The position numbers and the translations under genes are program-made. The notes beneath the pieces are model-generated. The model had not been told where the DNA came from. It was given only the letters and a program-made list of their open reading frames with translations, and did not search any database. A stretch of DNA of 64,000 nucleotides from Flavisolibacter tropicus. GTDB lineage: Bacteria > Bacteroidota > Bacteroidia > Chitinophagales > Chitinophagaceae. How positions within the stretch are numbered: the first letter of the stretch is position 1; every line of letters starts with the position of its first letter. Where the stretch lies: NCBI RefSeq assembly GCF_001644645.1, contig NZ_CP011390.1:1054001-1118000 (forward strand), read 5' to 3'. This document shows, one piece after another, positions 12,393 to 38,459 of the stretch.

Positions 12393-13163
12393 CTATGCTA
12401 ATACCTTGTGTAAAAAAGCCTTTGTAGCCTGCTCAACGTCTATATCTGTTTCTAAGGCCTTTATATAGGCACTGCCAATAATAGCGCCATTGGTGAATTT
12501 GCTAGCAGCTTCAAAGCTGTCTTTGTCTTTAATTCCAAAGCCCACCAAAACGGGATTCTTGAGTGGCAAGCTTTTCAAGCGTTTCAAATAGGATTCAACC
12601 GGAGAAAAATCTTTGTCTGTACCGGTTATCGATGAAGAAGAAACAGCATAAAGAAAGCCACTACTTAAGCTATCTAATTTTATGATTCGTTCTTCAGAAG
12701 TTTCAGGAGTAACCAGAAAAATGAAATCAAGGTTATATTTCTGAAGCACCTGTTTATACGCTGTTTCATACTCATACATAGGAATATCCGGGATGATCAA
12801 TCCATCAACACCTATTGCTGCTGCCTGAGCACAAAAGTTTTCAAAGCCGAATTGTAATAGTGGATTCAAATAGCCCATTAATACAACAGGCACATGGATC
12901 GTTTTTCTAAATCCATCTAACTGTTCAAACAATGTGGAGATTGTCATTCCGTTTTGCAATGCCTTGGTACTACTAGCCTGTATTACTGGGCCATCCGCAA
13001 GCGGATCGCTGTAAGGCATACCTAACTCTATCAGATCTGCACCATTATTCTGCAATGCCTGCATAACCGTAAGGGTACTATCCAGTTGTGGATAGCCAGC
13101 CGTACAATACACATTTAAAACGCGTTCTTTTTTACGCTTAAACAATTCCGAAATCCTACTCAT
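12393..13163 (-). CDS. trpA: Tryptophan synthase alpha subunit
   Basis: A 256-residue (beta/alpha)8 barrel. The catalytic Glu lies in LIELGMPYSDPLADG and the catalytic Asp in GVDGLIIPDIP. It cleaves indole-3-glycerol phosphate and channels indole to TrpB. It overlaps the upstream GNAT gene by 4 bp (ATGA arrangement) and sits 2 bp above hisH. Confidence 0.97.
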   Translation of the reverse strand: MSRISELFKRKKERVLNVYCTAGYPQLDSTLTVMQALQNNGADLIELGMPYSDPLADGPVIQASSTKALQNGMTISTLFEQLDGFRKTIHVPVVLMGYLNPLLQFGFENFCAQAAAIGVDGLIIPDIPMYEYETAYKQVLQKYNLDFIFLVTPETSEERIIKLDSLSSGFLYAVSSSSITGTDKDFSPVESYLKRLKSLPLKNPVLVGFGIKDKDSFEAASKFTNGAIIGSAYIKALETDIDVEQATKAFLHKVLA

Positions 13164-13624
13164 AACTGTTTCTCCATTTTAATATTGGCCCTTTCATAAT
13201 CTACGTTTCCCAAGGGCACTTCTACAAATCCATACTTTTTGTACAAATGAATGGCTGGCCCCAATAAGGTATTGGAATATAGAATCACTTTTTTAGCACC
13301 TAAGTCTGCCGCTTTTTCTAAACAAAACGCCAGCATGCGATTGCCAACCTTATTGCCCTGAAAGGTTTCATCTACCGCCATTTTGCTTAGCTCGTAAGAT
13401 TCATCATCTTGTTTTATTAAGGCAAAAGTTCCTGCCACCTCACCATTGATCGTGGCAAAAAAGATATGACTGCCTTTATCAATGAAATAAGCCTTGGGGT
13501 TAGACAACATCTCTTCATCGATTGGCTCTACATAGAAGTACTTCTTCAGCCAGGCAACGTTAAGCTCTTTAAACCGTTGGGCCAGATCGTCTCTAAAGTC
13601 AATAATTTCAACTGTTGTACTCAT
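13160..13624 (-). CDS. GNAT-family N-acetyltransferase
   Basis: A 154-residue GNAT protein with a clear acetyl-CoA loop (FQGNKVGNRMLAFCLEKA, about residues 88-105) after the strand YELSKMAVDE, and the C-terminal pattern LGPAIHLYKKYGFVEVPLG. Substrate unknown. It overlaps both neighbours by 4 bp (the DUF695 gene above and trpA below), a sign of tight translational coupling. Confidence 0.87.
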   Translation of the reverse strand: MSTTVEIIDFRDDLAQRFKELNVAWLKKYFYVEPIDEEMLSNPKAYFIDKGSHIFFATINGEVAGTFALIKQDDESYELSKMAVDETFQGNKVGNRMLAFCLEKAADLGAKKVILYSNTLLGPAIHLYKKYGFVEVPLGNVDYERANIKMEKQL

Positions 13625-14043
13625 AATAATTCATAAAAGGCAGATACATTTTGCCATTCTTTGTCTGACTCTATTTCAAAACTATTTTCTCTTTCAATGG
13701 TGGACAGAAAGTGTTCAAGAAAGGTTTGTACAGGCTCAGGATCTTTTGTATAAAAAATAATCTCTCTTCTTCTATAAACTGTAGTATGGCCTACATGTAC
13801 ACTATTGGTCTGACTCTCCAAATAGGCAATCATTTCTTTTTCTACTGCCACTAAATAGTCGTGTTCTTCCTCTAATGGGTGTCCCATTTCATTATACTGA
13901 TCCGGCATGATCTCAATAAATACTGAATGGGTATACTGCGCTTGCTCTTCTACATTTTTAAGATCTGTATTTATAATTGCAATTGCAGGGTAACCTTCTA
14001 CCTCAAACTCAAAACCGACATATGTTGCTTTTTCGCTTTTCAT
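13621..14043 (-). CDS. DUF695-like protein
   Basis: A 140-residue acidic cytosolic protein. The segment VGHTTVYRRREIIFYTKDPE followed by a C-terminal FEIESDKEWQNVSAFYELL resembles DUF695, a family of unknown function. It has no catalytic motif that I recognise. It sits between trpB (27 bp) and a GNAT gene (4-bp overlap) and is part of the trp transcript by position only. Confidence 0.65.
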   Translation of the reverse strand: MKSEKATYVGFEFEVEGYPAIAIINTDLKNVEEQAQYTHSVFIEIMPDQYNEMGHPLEEEHDYLVAVEKEMIAYLESQTNSVHVGHTTVYRRREIIFYTKDPEPVQTFLEHFLSTIERENSFEIESDKEWQNVSAFYELL

Positions 14044-14070: not shown

Positions 14071-15276
14071 TTATTCTACATCCATTATTCGCATATAGGT
14101 AGCCAAATCTTTATCCCCCCTGCCGCTTAAACATAAGACCACACAGTCTTTTTCGGTGAGAGCAAGCTGGTTTAAAGCAGCGAATGCATGTCCTGTTTCT
14201 AAAGCCGGAATAATTCCTTCTAACTTGGCCACCTGGAAAGATGCTTGCACAGCCTCATCATCAGTAGCGCTTAAAAATCGACCGCGTCCGCTTTCAAACA
14301 GGTGAGCATGCATGGGACCTATTCCTGGATAATCCAAGCCAGCAGAAATACTATGCGGCTCTACCACTTGTCCATCTTCCGTTTGCATTACCAAGCTACG
14401 GCTACCGTGCAGAATACCATCTCTACCTAGTTGTGTAGTAGCAGCACTTAATCCACTTTGTACACCATGACCTGCTGCTTCTACAGCAATCAACTGCACG
14501 CTTTGCTCTTCCAGGAAATGATAAAAAGCACCGGCGGCATTTGATCCACCACCCACACAGGCTATGACATGCGTAGGCAATTCTGTTCCGGTCTTTTCTT
14601 TTAATTGTTGTCTTACTTCCTTTGAAATGATACTTTGGAAACGTGCCACCATATCGGGATAAGGATGCGGGCCTACTACACTACCAATAATATAATGGGT
14701 ATTATAAGGGTTATTGATCCAATCGCGAATGGCCTCATTTGTAGCATCTTTCAGTGTTTTACTACCGCTAACTGCAGGAATAACCTTTGCGCCCAACATT
14801 TTCATACGGGCCACGTTTGGTGCTTGCCGCTCAATGTCTTTCTCGCCCATATATACAATACACTCAATACCCTTAAGTGCACAGACAGTAGCCGTTGCCA
14901 CACCATGTTGACCAGCTCCTGTTTCTGCTATTATTCGCTTCTTTCCTAAACGCTGGGCTAAAAGTATTTGTCCTACTGTATTATTGATCTTATGTGCGCC
15001 TGTATGACACAGGTCTTCGCGCTTCAGGTAGATATTTGTATTGAAATGTTTGCTTAAGCGCTGAGCGAAGTATAATGGAGTTGGGCGACCAACATAATCT
15101 TGCAGTAATTGCTGATACTCTTTTTGAAATGAAGCCTCCTGCATGATGTCCAGGTATTGTGTTCGCAGCTCCTCAACATTGCGATACAACATTTCCGGAA
15201 TATAGGCGCCTCCATATCTTCCATAATACCCTTGTTCATTGGGGAAAGTATATCGTGGAGCTTGTTTTGTGTTCAT
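14071..15276 (-). CDS. trpB: Tryptophan synthase beta subunit
   Basis: A 401-residue PLP enzyme of normal length. The PLP lysine is in the conserved segment KREDLCHTGAHKINN, the glycine-rich phosphate site in GGGSNA and the catalytic Glu in ETGAGQHG. It condenses indole with serine. It lies between the GNAT at 15343 (66 bp) and the DUF695 gene, so trpB and trpA are separated here by two non-tryptophan genes. Confidence 0.98.
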   Translation of the reverse strand: MNTKQAPRYTFPNEQGYYGRYGGAYIPEMLYRNVEELRTQYLDIMQEASFQKEYQQLLQDYVGRPTPLYFAQRLSKHFNTNIYLKREDLCHTGAHKINNTVGQILLAQRLGKKRIIAETGAGQHGVATATVCALKGIECIVYMGEKDIERQAPNVARMKMLGAKVIPAVSGSKTLKDATNEAIRDWINNPYNTHYIIGSVVGPHPYPDMVARFQSIISKEVRQQLKEKTGTELPTHVIACVGGGSNAAGAFYHFLEEQSVQLIAVEAAGHGVQSGLSAATTQLGRDGILHGSRSLVMQTEDGQVVEPHSISAGLDYPGIGPMHAHLFESGRGRFLSATDDEAVQASFQVAKLEGIIPALETGHAFAALNQLALTEKDCVVLCLSGRGDKDLATYMRIMDVE

Positions 15277-15342: not shown

Positions 15343-15861
15343 TCAATTCTCCTCAGGATGTTCTGGCGTCTCCAATATTAACTGAAAGAACTTCAAGTCC
15401 AGCCATTTCCCAAACTTGTATCCCACCTGCTTAAAATGTGCCACTTCAACAAAACCAAAGTGTTCATGTAGCTTAATACTCCCTTCATTCGTAGCATCGA
15501 TTCCAGAAACTATTGTATGCATATTCCGTTCTTTAGCCGCTTTGATAATCGGTGGAAATAGCAACTTACCAATACCTTTTCCTCTAGCCGATGCAGCCAC
15601 ATAAATAGAATTCTCTACCGAATATTTATAAGCTGCCCAGTTACGGAATGGGCCAATAGTGCTGAAACCATAAATAACACCATCCTCTTCCGCTACAAAT
15701 ACAGGAAACCCCTGCTCTTGTTTTGTTGCAAACCACTGTCGTCTCATCTCTATAGTGTGAGGATGATAATCATAAACAGCTGTAGTGTTTACTATAACAT
15801 CATTATAAATCTCTAGCATAGCCGGCAAGTCTACGTTTGTGGCCTCCCGAATAATAATCAT
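15343..15861 (-). CDS. GNAT N-acetyltransferase, phosphinothricin acetyltransferase-like
   Basis: A 172-residue GNAT protein. It has the features of the Pat/MnaT subgroup: start IIREATNVDLPAMLEIYNDV, the segment SVENSIYVAASARGKGIGKL with the acetyl-CoA loop, and IDATNEGSIKLHEHFGFVEV near the end. Such enzymes acetylate amino-acid-like amines (phosphinothricin, methionine derivatives). The real substrate here is unknown. It is third in a series of acetyltransferases within the trp-his run. Confidence 0.85.
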   Translation of the reverse strand: MIIIREATNVDLPAMLEIYNDVIVNTTAVYDYHPHTIEMRRQWFATKQEQGFPVFVAEEDGVIYGFSTIGPFRNWAAYKYSVENSIYVAASARGKGIGKLLFPPIIKAAKERNMHTIVSGIDATNEGSIKLHEHFGFVEVAHFKQVGYKFGKWLDLKFFQLILETPEHPEEN

Positions 15862-15939
15862 AGCTATCAGCTCTATTTAAAGTTTATACAATTCAATTTC
15901 ATCTCAATCTTACCAAATACGCCCAAACCAAATTGCTCT

Positions 15940-16308
15940 CTATATTTTCTCTAGCTGCGTTTTAGTCTTCTCGTTAGTAACATTCCCTGTATTTAAAGTA
16001 CTGGCAGGTTCAAACAAAAGCACCCAAACTTCTTCTTTTGCAACGGGCCTGTGCGCTACACCTTTGGGCACAATTAGAAACTCACCTTCTTTTACGATCA
16101 CTGTTTTATCACGAAACTCCATTTCAAAACTGCCTTTTACCACTAAAAACAACTCATCTTCGTTATCGTGATGGTGCCATACAAACTCACCTTGAAATTT
16201 TACCAATTTCACTTCCTGTCCATTCAATTCTCCAACTACCTTAGGACTCCAATGCTCATTAAACAAACCAAATTTTTCCAGAAGATTTATTGTATCCATA
16301 TCAGGCAT
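15940..16308 (-). CDS. Small cupin-domain protein
   Basis: A 122-residue single cupin barrel. Motif 1 (FVWHHHDNEDELFLVVKG, residues about 43-60) and motif 2 (VPKGVAHRPVA) carry the His/Glu ligands expected for a divalent metal. The function is not known; such proteins may be sugar-binding, dioxygenase or isomerase enzymes. Its start overlaps the end of trpF by 8 bp. Confidence 0.82.
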   Translation of the reverse strand: MPDMDTINLLEKFGLFNEHWSPKVVGELNGQEVKLVKFQGEFVWHHHDNEDELFLVVKGSFEMEFRDKTVIVKEGEFLIVPKGVAHRPVAKEEVWVLLFEPASTLNTGNVTNEKTKTQLEKI

Positions 16309-16924
16309 TTAGTTGTTTTATAAAATGAGCAACCTTATTCATATCCTTTATACCCGGCGCTATTTCAAAACGGCTGTTCACATCTACTGCATAAAGGTAC
16401 GGGTGATGAAAAGTTTTTAGCTTCTCTACATCCTCCAACCCTATTCCGCCACTTAGAAAAAAAGGCTTATTGATGCCTGCGCACTCCAATACCCTCCAAT
16501 CGAATTGCTGGCCACTACCTCCATACGCAGCTGTATCCGTATCAAATAAAAAATAATGACATACCTCCTGAAAGGGTGCTACTAAACCGTCTATATCTTT
16601 CTGGCCAGCTACACGAAACACTTTAATTACCTGAACCTTATCCATTAAATCCAGGCAGAACGCGTCTGTTTCATCCCCATGTAGTTGTACGGCCGTTAAA
16701 CTATAGTCTTGAATAGCCTTTTGCACAACATCCATTTCGGTATTAACAAAAACGCCTACTCTTGCAATATCTAACGCATTGACTAATGGCCGTTCATCTT
16801 CTAACTTATCTCCTGCAAATCGTTTGGATTTATCATAGAAGATCATTCCTGCATAATCAACACCAAGCTCTTGCAAGGTTTGCAGTTGTTCAACAGTAGT
16901 TATACCACAAACTTTGATTTTCAT
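16301..16924 (-). CDS. trpF: Phosphoribosylanthranilate isomerase
   Basis: A 207-residue (beta/alpha)8 barrel starting MKIKVCGITTVEQL with the catalytic Cys at residue 6 (KVCGI), the catalytic Asp in LFDTD and phosphate site FLSGGIGLEDV. It performs the Amadori rearrangement of PRA to CdRP. It overlaps trpC by 4 bp. Confidence 0.97.
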   Translation of the reverse strand: MKIKVCGITTVEQLQTLQELGVDYAGMIFYDKSKRFAGDKLEDERPLVNALDIARVGVFVNTEMDVVQKAIQDYSLTAVQLHGDETDAFCLDLMDKVQVIKVFRVAGQKDIDGLVAPFQEVCHYFLFDTDTAAYGGSGQQFDWRVLECAGINKPFFLSGGIGLEDVEKLKTFHHPYLYAVDVNSRFEIAPGIKDMNKVAHFIKQLNA

Positions 16925-17712
16925 ACCAGCGCATCTCTTAAATCTGATGTAAACTTCATAAAAGCCAGCCCCGGATCTTCCTGTTTCATAAAGTTCTCAC
17001 CAATTAAAAAGCCATTATAACCAGCGCTTTTCAGGTTCAAAATATCCTGTACGCTATTGATGCCGCTTTCTGATATCTTGATTTTATTTTCAGGTATATG
17101 ATGGCTTAAACGAATGGACTGTTCAATATCAACTTCAAAGGTTTTCAAGTTGCGATTATTTACACCTACAATATCTGTCCGCTGTTGGATATGTCCCAAT
17201 TCAGAGTCGTCATGTATTTCCAGAATCACTTCAAGACCTAACTCATGTGCCTTAAGAGTAAAGTCATGCACCTGCTCTGGTGTAAGAATGGCCGCTATCA
17301 GCAAGATAACATCAGCCCCGTAGGCTTTTGCTTCAACAATCTGGTATTCGTCAATGATAAACTCCTTACGTAAAATGGGCACATCATTAAAGCGGGCGGT
17401 GATCATATCATCAATACTGCCACCAAAGGAAGGCTCATCGGTAAGTATCGATAAGCCTGATGCACCATTAGATGCATAGGCCCGGGTTATTTGAGACACC
17501 TTTACTTTATCATTGATAATTCCCTTGGAGGGCGACTTACGCTTAAACTCGGCAATGATGCCTGTTTTCTTTTCATCCAACAGAAAGCGCTTCAAGGAGA
17601 ATGAGGGCTCTTCGAAAAGTGGCAACTGCTCTAATTCGGCAATAGACTTTAAAGACTTTGCTTTTTCTACTTCCTCTCTTTTGTAAGCAACTATTTTATC
17701 CAGTATGTTCAT
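16921..17712 (-). CDS. trpC: Indole-3-glycerol phosphate synthase
   Basis: A 263-residue (beta/alpha)8 barrel. Signature AEFKRKSPSKG (catalytic Lys), LRKEFIID and ISESGINSVQD with the phosphate-binding SESGI are all present. It is not fused to TrpF, which is a separate gene 4 bp overlapping downstream. It overlaps trpD by 4 bp upstream. Confidence 0.97.
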   Translation of the reverse strand: MNILDKIVAYKREEVEKAKSLKSIAELEQLPLFEEPSFSLKRFLLDEKKTGIIAEFKRKSPSKGIINDKVKVSQITRAYASNGASGLSILTDEPSFGGSIDDMITARFNDVPILRKEFIIDEYQIVEAKAYGADVILLIAAILTPEQVHDFTLKAHELGLEVILEIHDDSELGHIQQRTDIVGVNNRNLKTFEVDIEQSIRLSHHIPENKIKISESGINSVQDILNLKSAGYNGFLIGENFMKQEDPGLAFMKFTSDLRDALV

Positions 17713-18701
17713 TGTAGTTCAATTAACTTTTGAAACGATTGATAAGCTTTACCACTCTCTAAACTTTCAATTGCGGCATTATAGGAATCTTCATAATTAG
17801 CAAAGTTACCCGTGCATTGCAAAGCCATGGCCGCATTCGCTAATACAACTGCATTTTGAGCCCAGGTACCATCGCCTTTGATGATTTTCATAAAGATCTT
17901 TGCAGCTTCACCTACCGAGTTACCTCCCTGAATATCGGTAGAAGAAACCGTTCGTTTGCCCAGGTATTCTGGCGACAACACCTCTTCTCCTTTATTCGTA
18001 ATAACCTTGGTATCATTCGTTAATGATATCTCATCATACCCATCTAAACCATGTATAATCGTAAATGGTTTGCCTTCCTGTTGTAATAGGTAGTTATAAA
18101 TGCGCGCCATTTCCAGGCTATACACACCTACCAATTGAAACTCGGGCTTTGCCGGGTTTACCATAGGCCCCAGCATATTAAAGAAGGTACGCAATCCTAG
18201 GTTCTTACGGATGCCGCCTACATTTTTTAAAGCCGGGTGAAATAAAGGTGCATGTAAAAAAGTAAATCCCGATTCATCTAATTCTCTTTTCAATTGGTCA
18301 TTATCGTTCTTAAACTTATAACCCATGCTCTCCATGACATTAGAGGCGCCACTTACAGAGGAGGCCCCATAGTTGCCATGCTTGGCCACTTTTTGTCCGG
18401 CTCCAGCCACTATAAAGCAGGCCAGCGTTGAAATATTAAATGTATTCTTACCATCGCCACCCGTGCCCACAATATCCATTACCTTATGGCCATTTAGATC
18501 AACGGGTACAGCAAGTTCGAGTAAACCATCGCGGAAGCCTTGTAATTCGTCGATAGTAATACTGCGCATAAGAAAGACTGTCATGAATGCAGCCAGTTCG
18601 CTTTCATTGTATTCTCCCTTGGCAATATTCAGCATTACTGCTTTTGCTTGCTCCCGGCTAATGGTCTTATGTTCAAATAATTGTAGTAAAAGCTCTTTCA
18701 T
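17709..18701 (-). CDS. trpD: Anthranilate phosphoribosyltransferase
   Basis: A 330-residue class IV phosphoribosyltransferase of normal length. The PRPP loop DIVGTGGDGKNTFNIST and the anthranilate/Mg segment KHGNYGASSVSGASNVME are intact. It joins PRPP to anthranilate. It starts 2 bp after trpG and overlaps trpC by 4 bp. Confidence 0.97.
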   Translation of the reverse strand: MKELLLQLFEHKTISREQAKAVMLNIAKGEYNESELAAFMTVFLMRSITIDELQGFRDGLLELAVPVDLNGHKVMDIVGTGGDGKNTFNISTLACFIVAGAGQKVAKHGNYGASSVSGASNVMESMGYKFKNDNDQLKRELDESGFTFLHAPLFHPALKNVGGIRKNLGLRTFFNMLGPMVNPAKPEFQLVGVYSLEMARIYNYLLQQEGKPFTIIHGLDGYDEISLTNDTKVITNKGEEVLSPEYLGKRTVSSTDIQGGNSVGEAAKIFMKIIKGDGTWAQNAVVLANAAMALQCTGNFANYEDSYNAAIESLESGKAYQSFQKLIELQ

Positions 18702-18703
18702 GT

Positions 18704-19321
18704 TTACTTCTTTAACCAGTTACGTAAGATCTGTTCGCCTAGAGGAGTCAATACGCTTTCAGGGTGAAATTGTACCCCTTGTACATCAAAGCTCTTATGC
18801 TGCAAGGCCATTATGTAATCATTTTCATCGCGTGCTGTTACTTCCAGTTCTTCGGGAAATCCTTCTTCACTAATCACCCAGCTATGATATCGGCCAACGT
18901 CCATTTGATCACCTAATCCTTCAAAAAGCCCTTTTCGTGAATCGTGAATCGGGAATCGCTGACTTTCATTCCCGGTTGCCGATTCTCGTTTCCCGATCAC
19001 TACTGGCGTTGCCACTCCATGATACACTTGCTTCAGATTGATCAATTTACCACCAAAAGCTTCACCGATAGCCTGATGCCCCAGGCATACGCCCAATATG
19101 GATTTTTGAGAAGCATAGGCATTAATCAATGGTAGCAATTCTCCTGCTTCACTTGGCAAACCCGGCCCCGGCGACAAGATAATCTTATCGTAAGCTGCTA
19201 CTTCTTCCAAGGGAATTTCATCGTTTCGATACACATCTACCTGGTCGGTTACAATCTTTTTAACCAGATGCACCAGGTTGTAGGTAAAGGAATCGTAATT
19301 ATCAAAGACTAATATTTTCAT
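18704..19321 (-). CDS. trpG: Anthranilate synthase component II (glutamine amidotransferase)
   Basis: A class I amidotransferase with nucleophile Cys in ILGVCLGHQAIGEAFGG, the oxyanion loop SPGPGLPSE and VQFHPESVLTP. I use the ATG giving MKILVFDNYDSFTYNL (205 residues); an ATG five codons upstream (19336) is possible. Between HGVATPVVI and GLFEGLG there is an extra stretch of about 20 residues (GKRESATGNESQRFPIHDSR) absent from typical TrpG. It is encoded by a repeat-like tract of GAATCG words, which looks like an in-frame repeat insertion in a surface loop. Confidence 0.95.
   Translation of the reverse strand: MKILVFDNYDSFTYNLVHLVKKIVTDQVDVYRNDEIPLEEVAAYDKIILSPGPGLPSEAGELLPLINAYASQKSILGVCLGHQAIGEAFGGKLINLKQVYHGVATPVVIGKRESATGNESQRFPIHDSRKGLFEGLGDQMDVGRYHSWVISEEGFPEELEVTARDENDYIMALQHKSFDVQGVQFHPESVLTPLGEQILRNWLKK
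18936..18997. repeat. GAATCG/CGATTC repeat tract inside trpG
   Basis: A 62-bp tract made of the words CGTGAATCG, TGAATCGGGAATCG and, inverted, CCGATTCTCG and TTCCCGATC, so it is partly self-complementary. It sits in frame within trpG and coincides with the residues that typical TrpG proteins lack. I recall tracts of this kind as common between genes in Chitinophagaceae. Confidence 0.6.
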
Positions 19322-19344
19322 GTTACTGTAGTTCAAGTATATGA

Positions 19345-20799
19345 CTAACCGATCTTTTGCGCCTGACCAATAGCCACTTTCAATGCGTTCAATTTATTAT
19401 TTACTTCCTGCAATTCGTTTTCTGGCTGACTGGCCGCTACTACCCCTGCCCCTGCCTGGTAGAACAAGGTATTTTGTTTACTTAACAAGGTGCGAATCAT
19501 AATAGCATGATTGCAAGAGCCATCAAAACCTATATAACCAATAGCCCCACCATAATAGCTTCTGGAGGTAGGCTCGAACTCATTTATGAGTTCCATAGCG
19601 CGGTATTTAGGTGCACCGCTCAATGTACCTGCAGGAAATGTTTTGAACAGAATCTGAAATGGATTACTACCTGCAGCCACTTTACCAACCACCTCACTAA
19701 CCAGGTGTATTACATGGGAATAATACTGCACCTGTCGATATTGACTCACTTTCACATCGGTACATACTGTACTAAGGTCATTACGGGCCAAATCAACCAA
19801 CATTACATGCTCTGCGTTTTCTTTTGCGTCTTCCAATAGAGCGGCGGCTCTTTCCTGGTCTATGGTATCGTCGCCAGTACGTTTAAATGTGCCAGCTATA
19901 GGATGTACAACAGCTTGCCCATTTTTGATGATGAGCTGTGATTCTGGGGAAGAACCCATCAGCTTATAATCGCCATAGTCAAAGAAAAATAAATAAGGGG
20001 AAGGATTCACATGTCGCAAGGCGCGATAAACATTAAACTCATCGCCGATGAACGGTTGTTGAAAACGGCGACTAAGAACAATCTGGAACACATTGCCACG
20101 GTAACAATTCTCAATGCCTTTTTTCACCATTTCAATATACTCAGCATCGGTAAGGTTTGATGTTTCCTCACCTTTTAAATGGAAGGGATACACAGGTACA
20201 TCTTTGCTATTAATGAGTGACTCTAACACAGCAGACTCACTTTCAAAGCCATTGATCTTGTTTTCACATAGGATCAACTCATCTTTATGATGATTAATGG
20301 CAATTACGTATTGATACAAACGGTAGCGCGCTATAGGAATGGCATTCGCCTCATCGTTTCCCTTCTTAAATTGAATGGTTTCAAAAAACTGTACAGCATC
20401 AAACGTAAAGTAGCCATATAAGCCTTGCGCAAAACGGGCAGCTTTGGGATCTGTACTTGTTCCCTCAAATCGTTGGGTAAATTGCCATAACAGCTCCTTT
20501 AGATCCTCATTCTTTTTTAAAGCAACATTTTCAGCCGGTTGATTGGGCAGTTTAAACTCAACCCTGCTTTGATCCTTTATTTCAATACCAGCAATAGCAT
20601 TGATACAGATGAAGGAATAACTGTTTTCAGCAGCATGGCTGTCCGTGCTTTCCAGAAGAACAGTATCTCTGAAACGATCACGCAACCGAAGGTAAATGCC
20701 AACAGGAGTATAGATATCTGCCAACATTTTCTTAACTGTCGTTTCTATTACAATCTTTTTGCCCCCAATCCCAAGGGGAGCCGTTTTAATCGCTTCCAA
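19345..20799 (-). CDS. trpE: Anthranilate synthase component I
   Basis: A 484-residue chorismate-utilising enzyme. Conserved segments include NPSPYLFFFDYGDYKLMGSS, HPIAGTFKR, DLARNDL and GTLSGAPKYRAMELI, all with expected catalytic residues. The start is a TTG at 20799: the frame is closed by a stop just upstream, and the first in-frame ATG (20727) would cut into the conserved N-terminal domain that carries the Trp feedback site. It is the first enzyme gene of the trp run, about 108 nt below the attenuator terminator, with repeat copy B in between. Confidence 0.96.
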   Translation of the reverse strand: MEAIKTAPLGIGGKKIVIETTVKKMLADIYTPVGIYLRLRDRFRDTVLLESTDSHAAENSYSFICINAIAGIEIKDQSRVEFKLPNQPAENVALKKNEDLKELLWQFTQRFEGTSTDPKAARFAQGLYGYFTFDAVQFFETIQFKKGNDEANAIPIARYRLYQYVIAINHHKDELILCENKINGFESESAVLESLINSKDVPVYPFHLKGEETSNLTDAEYIEMVKKGIENCYRGNVFQIVLSRRFQQPFIGDEFNVYRALRHVNPSPYLFFFDYGDYKLMGSSPESQLIIKNGQAVVHPIAGTFKRTGDDTIDQERAAALLEDAKENAEHVMLVDLARNDLSTVCTDVKVSQYRQVQYYSHVIHLVSEVVGKVAAGSNPFQILFKTFPAGTLSGAPKYRAMELINEFEPTSRSYYGGAIGYIGFDGSCNHAIMIRTLLSKQNTLFYQAGAGVVAASQPENELQEVNNKLNALKVAIGQAQKIG

Positions 20800-20906: not shown

Positions 20907-20930
20907 AAAAAAAGCCCCGAAACCGGGGCT
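20907..20930 (-). terminator. trp attenuator terminator
   Basis: On the minus strand AGCCCCG pairs with CGGGGCT (loop GTTT) and is followed by T7. It lies upstream of trpE and downstream of the Trp-rich leader peptide. An alternative pairing exists: the leader segment at 20965-20977 (AAACCGGGTTCTG) is complementary, with one mismatch/bulge, to 20920-20933 (CAGAGCCCCGGTTT), which contains the 5' arm of the terminator. That is a classic antiterminator. Confidence 0.88.
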
Positions 20931-20961
20931 CTGAATATATTGGACAATATATGGCAATAGC

Positions 20962-21021
20962 TTACAGAACCCGGTTTGAGTTTGTATGCCACCACCACTG
21001 ATTGTTTATTACTTGTTTCAT
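20962..21021 (-). CDS. trpL: trp operon leader peptide
   Basis: A 19-codon reading frame on the minus strand encoding MKQVINNQWWWHTNSNRVL, with three consecutive TGG codons at positions 9-11. Stalling there at low Trp-tRNA would leave the antiterminator segment at 20965-20977 free. Translation to the TAA would cover it and let the terminator form. This is the normal ribosome-mediated attenuation logic. Position (directly before the terminator and trpE) and triple Trp make chance unlikely. It is too short for routine gene calling. Confidence 0.9.
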   Translation of the reverse strand: MKQVINNQWWWHTNSNRVL

Positions 21022-21028
21022 TTCAATA

Positions 21029-21060
21029 CAAATATGCATCAGGCACGGCATTTGGGCAAA
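21029..21060 (-). promoter_or_regulatory. Promoter of the trp leader and operon
   Basis: On the minus strand -33 TTTG (21057-21060), 20-nt spacer, -7 CATATTTG (21029-21036; 7 of 8 to the TAnnTTTG box counting n as free). The predicted start is 21022, one base before the leader ATG. The his leader has the same geometry. Confidence 0.65.
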
Positions 21061-21088: not shown

Positions 21089-21376
21089 ATGCTAATTCAA
21101 CATAAACAAGACGGCCACAAGGGCATATATTATATTGAAGAAGATGGCAATGTACTGGCAGAAATCATTTATTCCAGTGCCGACAATGATCAACTATTGA
21201 TCATTGAACACACAGAAGTATATGATGAGCTACGTGGTACAAACGTTGGCTATGAACTGGTGCACAAATTGGTGGAACAGGCCCGCATGCATGGACAAAA
21301 AATAGCCCCTGTTTGTCCCTTTGCCAAAGCTATTATTGATAAAAAACCCGACTTCCAGGACATCTTATCTGAATAA
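21089..21376 (+). CDS. Small GNAT-like acetyltransferase (YidJ/Gtn-type, PF14542-like)
   Basis: A 95-residue protein starting MLIQHKQDGHKGIYYIEEDG. It has the minimal acetyltransferase core: a strand LLIIEHTEV, the loop ELRGTNVGYELVHKLVEQAR and KIAPVCPFAKAII with the conserved Cys-Pro-Phe. The frame is open further upstream to 21002, but that part lies in the trp promoter region and the paralogue next door begins at the equivalent Met. Substrate unknown. It is divergent from the trp leader. Confidence 0.8.
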   Translation: MLIQHKQDGHKGIYYIEEDGNVLAEIIYSSADNDQLLIIEHTEVYDELRGTNVGYELVHKLVEQARMHGQKIAPVCPFAKAIIDKKPDFQDILSE

Positions 21377-28682: not shown

Positions 28683-28714
28683 TAAAAAAAAGGCTCACCC
28701 TACGGTAAGCCTTT
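28683..28714 (-). terminator. his attenuator terminator
   Basis: On the minus strand AAGGCTTACC (28704-28713) pairs with GGTGAGCCTT (28690-28699), one G-T pair, followed by T8. The segment GGGTGAGCC at 28745-28753 in the leader repeats the 3' arm almost exactly and can pair with the 5' arm instead (antiterminator). It can also pair with the upstream CTTACC at 28758-28763. Arms 1, 2, 3 and 4 of a textbook attenuator are all present. Confidence 0.88.
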
Positions 28715-28747
28715 CGATTATATGAAGTACAACAATACATCATTGGC

Positions 28748-28801
28748 TCACCCATTAGGTAAGTGCGCATGATGATGTGTATGTACTGAAAAATTCAACA
28801 T
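28748..28801 (-). CDS. hisL: his operon leader peptide
   Basis: A 17-codon reading frame on the minus strand encoding MLNFSVHTHHHAHLPNG, with five His codons in seven positions. Its TGA stop is inside the attenuator arm 2. Stalling at the His run would leave arm 2 free to pair with arm 3 and prevent termination before hisG. It is too short for routine gene calling; the His content, position and RNA pairing make the call strong. Confidence 0.9.
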   Translation of the reverse strand: MLNFSVHTHHHAHLPNG

Positions 28802-28808
28802 TAGAGTG

Positions 28809-38318: not shown

Positions 38319-38327
38319 AAAAAAAAG

Positions 38328-38421
38328 GCAGGCTACTTACATCGCACCGCTACAACCGCCTACCCTTGCTACCTTCCGGTCCTGGGGGAGTTCAGCAGGA
38401 GCTGGTCGTGCAAGACCTGCC
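38328..38421 (-). ncRNA. ffs: Signal recognition particle RNA, small bacterial type (4.5S)
   Basis: On the minus strand the sequence begins GGCAGGTCTTGCACGACC and contains the conserved helix-8 core with AGGACCGGAAGGTAGCAAGG (GGAA tetraloop and asymmetric AGCA loop that bind Ffh). It ends in GTAGCCTGCC, which pairs with the 5' end. A T8 tract follows. It forms the SRP with Ffh. Confidence 0.93.
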
Positions 38422-38425
38422 GCCG

Positions 38426-38459
38426 CAAATATAGAACCTTTTAGTTTATAAAAAACAAA
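38426..38459 (-). promoter_or_regulatory. Promoter of the SRP RNA
   Basis: On the minus strand -7 TATATTTG (38426-38433) is perfect; TTTG lies at 38456-38459 with a 22-nt spacer. The predicted start is about 38419, which matches the RNA 5' end. Confidence 0.7.

Follow-up and report, generated by a model that had tools for sequence, protein, structure and literature searches.

The trp operon of Flavisolibacter tropicus is very probably controlled by a ribosome-mediated transcription attenuator, encoded on the minus strand of the 64,000-nt stretch of DNA analysed here (the window). A short ORF with tandem Trp codons lies directly upstream of a trp biosynthetic gene, it is followed by an antiterminator and an intrinsic terminator which are mutually exclusive as judged from sequence, folds and duplexes, and the leader is conserved in relatives with its pairing kept. 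The initial annotation had read this locus as a trp leader-peptide attenuator, and the reading is supported, its sequence-level predictions having been borne out.

Organisation of the trp leader and operon

The leader consists of a promoter-like element, a short ORF and a set of alternative helices, with the trp genes downstream:

21029-21060, minus strand: promoter-like element, with -33 TTTG (21060-21057), a 20-nt spacer and the -7 box CATATTTG (21036-21029); from sequence and conservation in 100 leaders
21022-21024, minus strand: predicted 5'UTR of 2-3 nt (putative start at 21024 or 21023); from the 7 nt between box and ATG and the spacing in F. johnsoniae
20962-21021, minus strand: leader peptide ORF MKQVINNQWWWHTNSNRVL, stop TAA; from sequence, with the frame kept in relatives
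20989-20997, minus strand: three tandem Trp codons (TGG, control codons); from sequence and core-motif match
20978-20998, minus strand: region 1, 5' arm of the 1:2 hairpin, overlapping the Trp codons; from fold, duplexes and pair counts
20951-20972, minus strand: region 2, 3' arm of the 1:2 hairpin (GGGUU, UGUA, GCUAUUGCCAU); from fold, duplexes and pair counts
20965-20977, minus strand: antiterminator 5' arm AAACCGGGTTCTG (region 2 side of 2:3); from sequence and folds with a stalled ribosome
20920-20933, minus strand: antiterminator 3' arm, region 3, CAGAGCCCCGGTTT; from sequence and folds with a stalled ribosome
20907-20932, minus strand: intrinsic terminator, stem (regions 3:4) at 20932-20911 and T-run to 20907; from fold
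19345-20799, minus strand: trpE (anthranilate synthase component I), best NCBIfam match TIGR00564 (E 4e-123, below the curated cut-off)
18704-19336, minus strand: trpG (glutamine amidotransferase), TIGR00566 above cut-off
17709-18701, minus strand: trpD, TIGR01245 above cut-off
16921-17712, minus strand: trpC, NF001377 above cut-off
16301-16924, minus strand: trpF, best match E 3e-47, below its cut-off
14071-15276, minus strand: trpB, TIGR00263 above cut-off
12393-13163, minus strand: trpA, PF00290

The annotation had described a 19-codon frame with three TGG codons followed by a terminator, and both are present where it placed them: the 19 codons run from the ATG at 21021 to the TAA at 20962, with the TGG triplets at 20997-20989 (the core-motif match G000:C1:1074980-1074997 corresponds to window 20980-20997), and the terminator has a stem of 9 pairs closing a loop of 4. 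The antiterminator of 13-14 nt which it saw overlapping the 5' arm of the terminator (20977-20965 with 20933-20920) forms 13 pairs with one bulged C. Folding the leader RNA, as the annotation had advised, gave -43.5 kcal/mol for 21030-20900 (131 nt) against -26.2 (sd 3.3) in 200 shuffles, none of which was as stable (z -5.24), and the alternative helices are present. The UAA (20964-20962) adjoins the antiterminator arm, a position that suits a terminating ribosome covering region 2; the stop comes 12 nt earlier in three exceptions (L010, L011, L104) among 100 leaders.

Two features go beyond the annotation, a 1:2 helix over the Trp codons and the promoter-like element just upstream of the ATG. 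In the 1:2 hairpin, region 1, GUGGUGGUGGC-A-UACAAACUC, which contains the Trp codons, is paired to GGGUU-C-UGUA-A-GCUAUUGCCAU, so that the Trp codons are sequestered. The 5' part of region 2 overlaps the antiterminator 5' arm and, since region 1 pairs with region 2 in the fold, region 2 has two possible partners, region 1 or region 3.

That the attenuator precedes trpE, as had been proposed, is confirmed by the profile matches to a trp operon downstream, in the order trpE, G, D, C, F, B, A, interrupted on either side of trpB. The genes separating trpF from trpB (15343-16308, minus strand) encode a cupin and a GNAT protein (best NCBIfam match ArsN1, below cut-off), those separating trpB from trpA (13160-14043, minus strand) a DUF695 protein and a second GNAT. 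The first in-frame ATG, GTG or TTG of trpE is the TTG at 20799, with no in-frame ATG ahead of the conserved part, and TrpE alignments of most relatives begin only at residue 9-16; the true start of trpE is therefore uncertain. On the plus strand, a divergent small GNAT frame (Acetyltransf_CG, 21089-21376) has its ATG some 30 nt away from the -33 element of trp, and similar divergent frames seem, by eye only, to precede the leaders of several relatives.

Conservation within Chitinophagaceae

A test set beforehand was whether Trp codons and arms are kept in relatives. A TrpE search of 58 relatives yielded 30 loci (15 on minus strands, reoriented), and the TGGTGGTGG leader frame is found upstream in 28 of them, the exceptions being L028, with a doubtful WW frame only, and L030, whose leader reads WWLSRW. 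In L027 and L029, which belong to other families of the order, WWW is present but its flank differs. The 18-nt core TGGTGGTGGCAYACAAAC occurs in one copy each in 86 of 294 same-family genomes, from 41 of 101 genera, and all 86 (77 + 9 loci) are followed on the same strand by a TrpE-coding match; the reversed-motif control was absent among the matches listed for the 294 genomes. Combining 23 TrpE-selected leaders from the family with 77 motif-selected ones gave a set of 100, all of which have an ATG 21-30 nt before the first TGG (in 67 of them at 27 nt and in 30 at 24 nt; the search was limited to 30 nt). In 91 of the 96 leaders with the exact core, the distance from the first T to the stop is 33 nt. 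Nucleotide conservation is strong across the leader, and conservation in relatives makes a chance origin of its elements untenable.

A covariance model (R1), built from the 100 leaders (alignment A2) and applied at E <= 1e-6, matches 172 of 209 trpE-bearing family genomes (TrpE E <= 1e-80; hand count) and 3 of the 85 family genomes without TrpE at that threshold (hand count). The three latter genomes (G082, G167, G189) are assemblies 75-89% complete, and in two of them (loci L107, L035) a contig end cuts the TrpE match following the leader. No model match at 1e-6 was obtained in 37 of the 209 trpE-bearing genomes (hand count), among which L024-L026 have WWW frames. The exact core is missing from 64 of the 150 model matches listed; 57 of these are followed by a TrpE match within 320 nt, and the remaining 7 have no nearby TrpE among the matches listed. 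We read 60 of the 64 coreless loci (G013, G020, G146 and G241 were left out; L112 repeats L004, and L120 repeats L022), and all carry TGGTGGTGG, 56 starting with ATG and 4 with GTG. The GTG of the latter (L123, L132, L151, L165) stands 24-27 nt before the Trp codons, and three of the four begin 4-6 nt after a TATTTG box, which is of interest for leaderless starts.

A set of named records, the best 80 of 582 relatives by TrpE scan, partly overlaps the other family genomes and covers mostly Chitinophagaceae (Flavihumibacter, Niastella, Terrimonas, Sediminibacterium, Hydrotalea, Paraflavitalea, Chitinophaga). Among the 79 with at least 150 nt upstream, 65 have a WWW leader frame, and in 14 the script did not find one.

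Pairing and covariation across leaders

A hairpin adjoins a TTTT run in 98 of the 100 leaders (mean -17.2 kcal/mol), and these 98, the window included and L020 and L077 with their interrupted T-runs dropped, were used for duplex calculations. The mean energy of the 2:3 duplex is -15.0 kcal/mol, compared to -7.4 with shuffled region 3, and in 98/98 leaders it is stronger than the average for ten shuffles of the same leader. For 1:2 the mean is -16.3 kcal/mol, compared to -8.6 with shuffled region 2, and it is stronger in 97/98. With partners swapped between leaders, 2:3 averages -13.6 kcal/mol (64% of swaps worse, a cognate advantage of about 1.5 kcal/mol) and 1:2 averages -16.2 kcal/mol, the cognate being no better. 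As the gap between cognate and swapped partners is small, most of the pairing signal comes from common sequence, not covariation.

In alignment A2 the columns facing the fixed Trp codons alternate C/U opposite G (e.g. GC 53, GU 46, GA 1), so pairing is kept there by one-sided changes; both-sided changes on A2 occur in the terminator stem only. Region 1 position 15 (from the first T) faces its partner as A-U in 138 of the 155 leaders that could be placed out of 158 (L104, L165 and L166 left out). In L128, L129, L131, L160 and L167, from five genera, region 1 A has changed to U together with region 2 U to G (Fisher p 1.3e-6 for the paired change, kinship among leaders ignored), and the other pairs are A-A 5, G-A 2, C-U 2, A-C 1, G-U 1 and U-U 1. 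At codon 6, 127 leaders have AAC and 1 has AAT, both Asn, in a count where motif-selected leaders (86 genomes) are fixed to AAC by the motif.

Across the aligned leaders, the conserved letters track RNA pairing better than the peptide. This matters for a TnaC-type arrest peptide, where the nascent leader peptide itself would sense free tryptophan and stall, rather than the ribosome responding to a shortage of charged tRNA-Trp. The Trp-rich peptide with its recurrent flank WWW-H-T/S/A-N would suit such a sensor, but the residues after WWW vary (codon 4 is H, Q, L, R or Y) where the paired nucleotides are largely kept, the C-termini differ (NSxGVL, NLxRGL, TLRGL, or a stop after NS), and a run of three control codons ahead of a biosynthetic operon suits starvation sensing. 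With the residues after WWW not kept, we rejected an arrest peptide, which we consider highly improbable, in favour of attenuation by a ribosome stalled on Trp codons.

A promoter-like box and a predicted (near-)leaderless start

Alignment of the 100 leaders on the ATG reveals an A/T tract together with TTTG at positions -39 to -36 and CATATTTG at positions -15 to -8. Of the 100 leaders, 94 have the box in a loose form (.A..TT[TC]G) with its end 4-8 nt upstream of the ATG, 68 of them at exactly 7 nt, and a box at 4-8 nt is likewise present in 47 of 54 ATG leaders of a second set and in 57 of 65 named-record leaders (a partly overlapping set). The background in the window is 1 in 64 ORFs (of at least 100 codons) and 29 in 2345 ATG trinucleotides. 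The first letter of the box is mostly C, unlike the near-invariant T of F. johnsoniae, and the strict TAnnTTTG is found at that spacing in only 12/100 leaders and is absent from the window trp leader. A sigma-70 promoter scan gave no minus-strand match, as expected for the phylum.

The sigma-A box of F. johnsoniae occupies positions -12 to -5, leaving 4 or 5 nt before the start (parts of PMC6847099), and that of F. psychrophilum has the same position, -12 to -5 (parts of PMC9723704). Taken together with the 7 nt between box and ATG, the F. johnsoniae spacing places the predicted start at 21024 or 21023. More generally, the box spacing predicts a 5'UTR of 0-4 nt, and the leader-peptide mRNA is thus probably leaderless or nearly so. 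The missing Shine-Dalgarno sequence, which the annotation had left at that, likely finds its answer here: transcription starting at or a few bases from the AUG. Leaderless transcripts make up 3.7% of mapped transcripts in B. thetaiotaomicron (5'UTR < 10 nt; PMC7366714, in part) and 5.5% in F. psychrophilum (PMC9723704, in part), and 87% of leaders in F. johnsoniae are longer than 10 nt (PMC6847099, in part). Against these figures, a mostly leaderless-looking transcript class would stand out.

The same window holds a second leader of this kind, a His attenuator before hisG (28801-28690, minus strand) with the leader MLNFSVHTHHHAHLPNG and the terminator GGCTTACC...GGGTGAGCC followed by a T-run; the fold of 28690-28803 has a z of -4.80. 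It resembles the trp leader in having a box 7 nt before the ATG, a terminator and a biosynthetic gene (hisG) next, and differs in its His control codons and in its box, which has the strict form TACTTTTG. Among 30 hisG loci read (out of 35 matches), a His-rich leader frame is present in 19, of which 11 show the box at 4-8 nt, a count that leans upward because the script preferred starts with a box. The near-leaderless layout is therefore predicted, on sequence grounds, to be common to Trp and His leaders. Whether amino-acid attenuators of Bacteroidota are in general built on (near-)leaderless mRNAs, with the sigma-A promoter placed for a start at the leader AUG and so setting the coupling, seems to us an evenly balanced question. 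If true, the ribosome would load once the tip of the RNA emerges, which would set the coupling needed for attenuation. Leader-peptide initiation in a phylum without Shine-Dalgarno sequences, and the tightness of transcription-translation coupling there, are thus open to simple experiments.

Ribosome positions and the proposed mechanism

To place the ribosome on the RNA, folds were masked with footprints assumed from general knowledge. With the ribosome on Trp codon 1 or 3 of the window RNA, the presence of region 4 does not keep the 2:3 antiterminator from forming; with the ribosome at the stop the terminator forms, and without a ribosome 1:2 and the terminator form. Over the 98 leaders, the terminator is formed without a ribosome in 98/98 and with the ribosome at the stop also in 98/98, and on stalling 2:3 forms ahead of the synthesis of region 4 in 96/98. 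In the presence of region 4 and a stalled ribosome, the terminator is the favoured equilibrium fold in 88-92 of the 98 leaders; the switch must therefore be kinetic (2:3 first) in most relatives. Trp attenuation is generally held to depend on 2:3 forming first.

What has been computed is the ORF and the alternative helices, how far both are conserved and how they fit the ribosome positions; we infer the start site, the coupling and the response to tryptophan, with charged tRNA-Trp as the putative signal. RNA polymerase would start at or a few bases from the leader AUG and, given such a start, the ribosome would load on an mRNA that is (near-)leaderless and lacks a Shine-Dalgarno sequence. When charged tRNA-Trp is plentiful, the ribosome would pass WWW and reach the UAA, covering the antiterminator arm of region 2, so that region 3 would pair with region 4 and transcription would end at the U-run. 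When charged tRNA-Trp is scarce, the ribosome would stall on one of the three Trp codons and mask region 1, and 2:3 would pair before region 4 is made, allowing read-through into the trp genes. With no ribosome, 1:2 and 3:4 would form and transcription would end.

The presence of the terminator in all 98 ribosome-free folds would also fit an ORF that is not read at all, in which case the terminator would be a constant brake without regulation, or the conservation of the DNA would be owed to the divergent gene; the GNAT frame, with its ATG at 21089 on the plus strand, is indeed close to the promoter. An unread ORF, however, would leave unexplained why the start, length and stop of the WWW frame are kept across the family, why regions 1 and 2 change together in five genera and why the -7 box keeps its distance to the leader ATG, and we give this possibility very little credence compared to a translated leader.

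Distribution beyond the family

At 1e-6, model R1 matches 7 of 296 phylum genomes, all 7 in Chitinophagaceae. We have thus rejected the idea of the same RNA across the phylum: the matches are all in the family itself, and Trp leaders of other families have different flanks. Among 119 genomes of the class there are 36 TrpE matches outside the family, of which 27 loci were read, 25 with at least 150 nt upstream. A short WWW, WW or WxW frame followed by a terminator-like hairpin within 140 nt is present in 19 of these 25 (in a scan without shuffle control), and a Trp-rich leader with a hairpin was not found in the other 6 upstream regions. The conserved leader RNA thus appears specific to Chitinophagaceae, while Trp leaders, with 19 of 25 Trp-rich and in other flanks, look common in the class and divergent in sequence. 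Among the named records, one whose title places it outside Chitinophagaceae (L303, Epilithonimonas lactis) encodes a TrpE 62% identical to that of the window; the leader upstream has WWW with a different flank (WWWLSNSLSG) and a box 6 nt before the ATG.

Comparison with known systems

A search with the 4227 families of Rfam 15 at gathering gave no family match at the trp leader locus, the T-box models included, and a T-box or other known riboregulator was rejected on these grounds. Eight sub-threshold matches were all far below their cut-offs, the top one being Phe_leader (22.6 bits compared to the 55 needed). Elsewhere in the window, Rfam RF04183 identifies a small SRP RNA (38322-38429, minus strand, 93.5 bits). 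The present analysis thus defines a family-wide trp leader RNA in Chitinophagaceae without a matching Rfam family.

The annotation attached special interest to such an attenuator in Bacteroidota, with their few Shine-Dalgarno sequences, but leader-peptide attenuation had been inferred before in the phylum, in Flavobacterium psychrophilum, which makes the attenuator less special than hoped: 'strong clues' for it were reported upstream of amino-acid operons, with structured 5' elements before pheA and hisG that have no Rfam hits (PMC9723704, in part). The passages of that paper used here give no trp leader sequence, arms or start geometry. Possible leader-peptide ORFs were also noted in B. thetaiotaomicron (PMC7366714, in part). 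Our literature search, little of it Chitinophaga-specific and drawn from partial texts, found no description of a trp leader peptide of Chitinophagaceae; priority is not established. Lopatovskaya 2010 and Merino, Jensen and Yanofsky 2008 probably list Bacteroidetes attenuators.

In the enterobacterial trpL attenuator (Rfam family Trp_leader) a leader ORF is combined with regions 1-4 and the alternatives 1:2, 2:3 and 3:4. The leader described here shares the short ORF with tandem Trp codons, the three alternative pairings, the stop codon adjoining region 2 and the intrinsic terminator before trpE. It differs in having three tandem Trp codons where trpL has two, no Shine-Dalgarno sequence, a Bacteroidota-type promoter directly on the ATG and an unrelated sequence.

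The predicted start geometry resembles that of the alphaproteobacterium Sinorhizobium meliloti, where the trpL/rnTrpL attenuator of trpE(G) has a 14-residue leader peptide and an RNA 5' end that coincides with the AUG (PMC7298713, in part); both are trpE attenuators, with the AUG at the RNA 5' end there and a near-leaderless start predicted here. In S. meliloti trans roles have been shown, while here they are a candidate only: the terminated leader RNA (~115 nt) and the peptide might act in trans besides the cis function, like rnTrpL and peTrpL. The predicted geometry, like that of rnTrpL with its 5' end at the AUG of trpL (PMC7298713, in part), and the strong nucleotide conservation of the leader are what one would expect of such an RNA; much of that conservation is, however, explained by the 1:2 helix, and we regard a trans role as unlikely. 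As for the cis function, the class of mechanism is already known, namely classic ribosome-mediated attenuation, and the new feature predicted from the sequence is its near-leaderless start.
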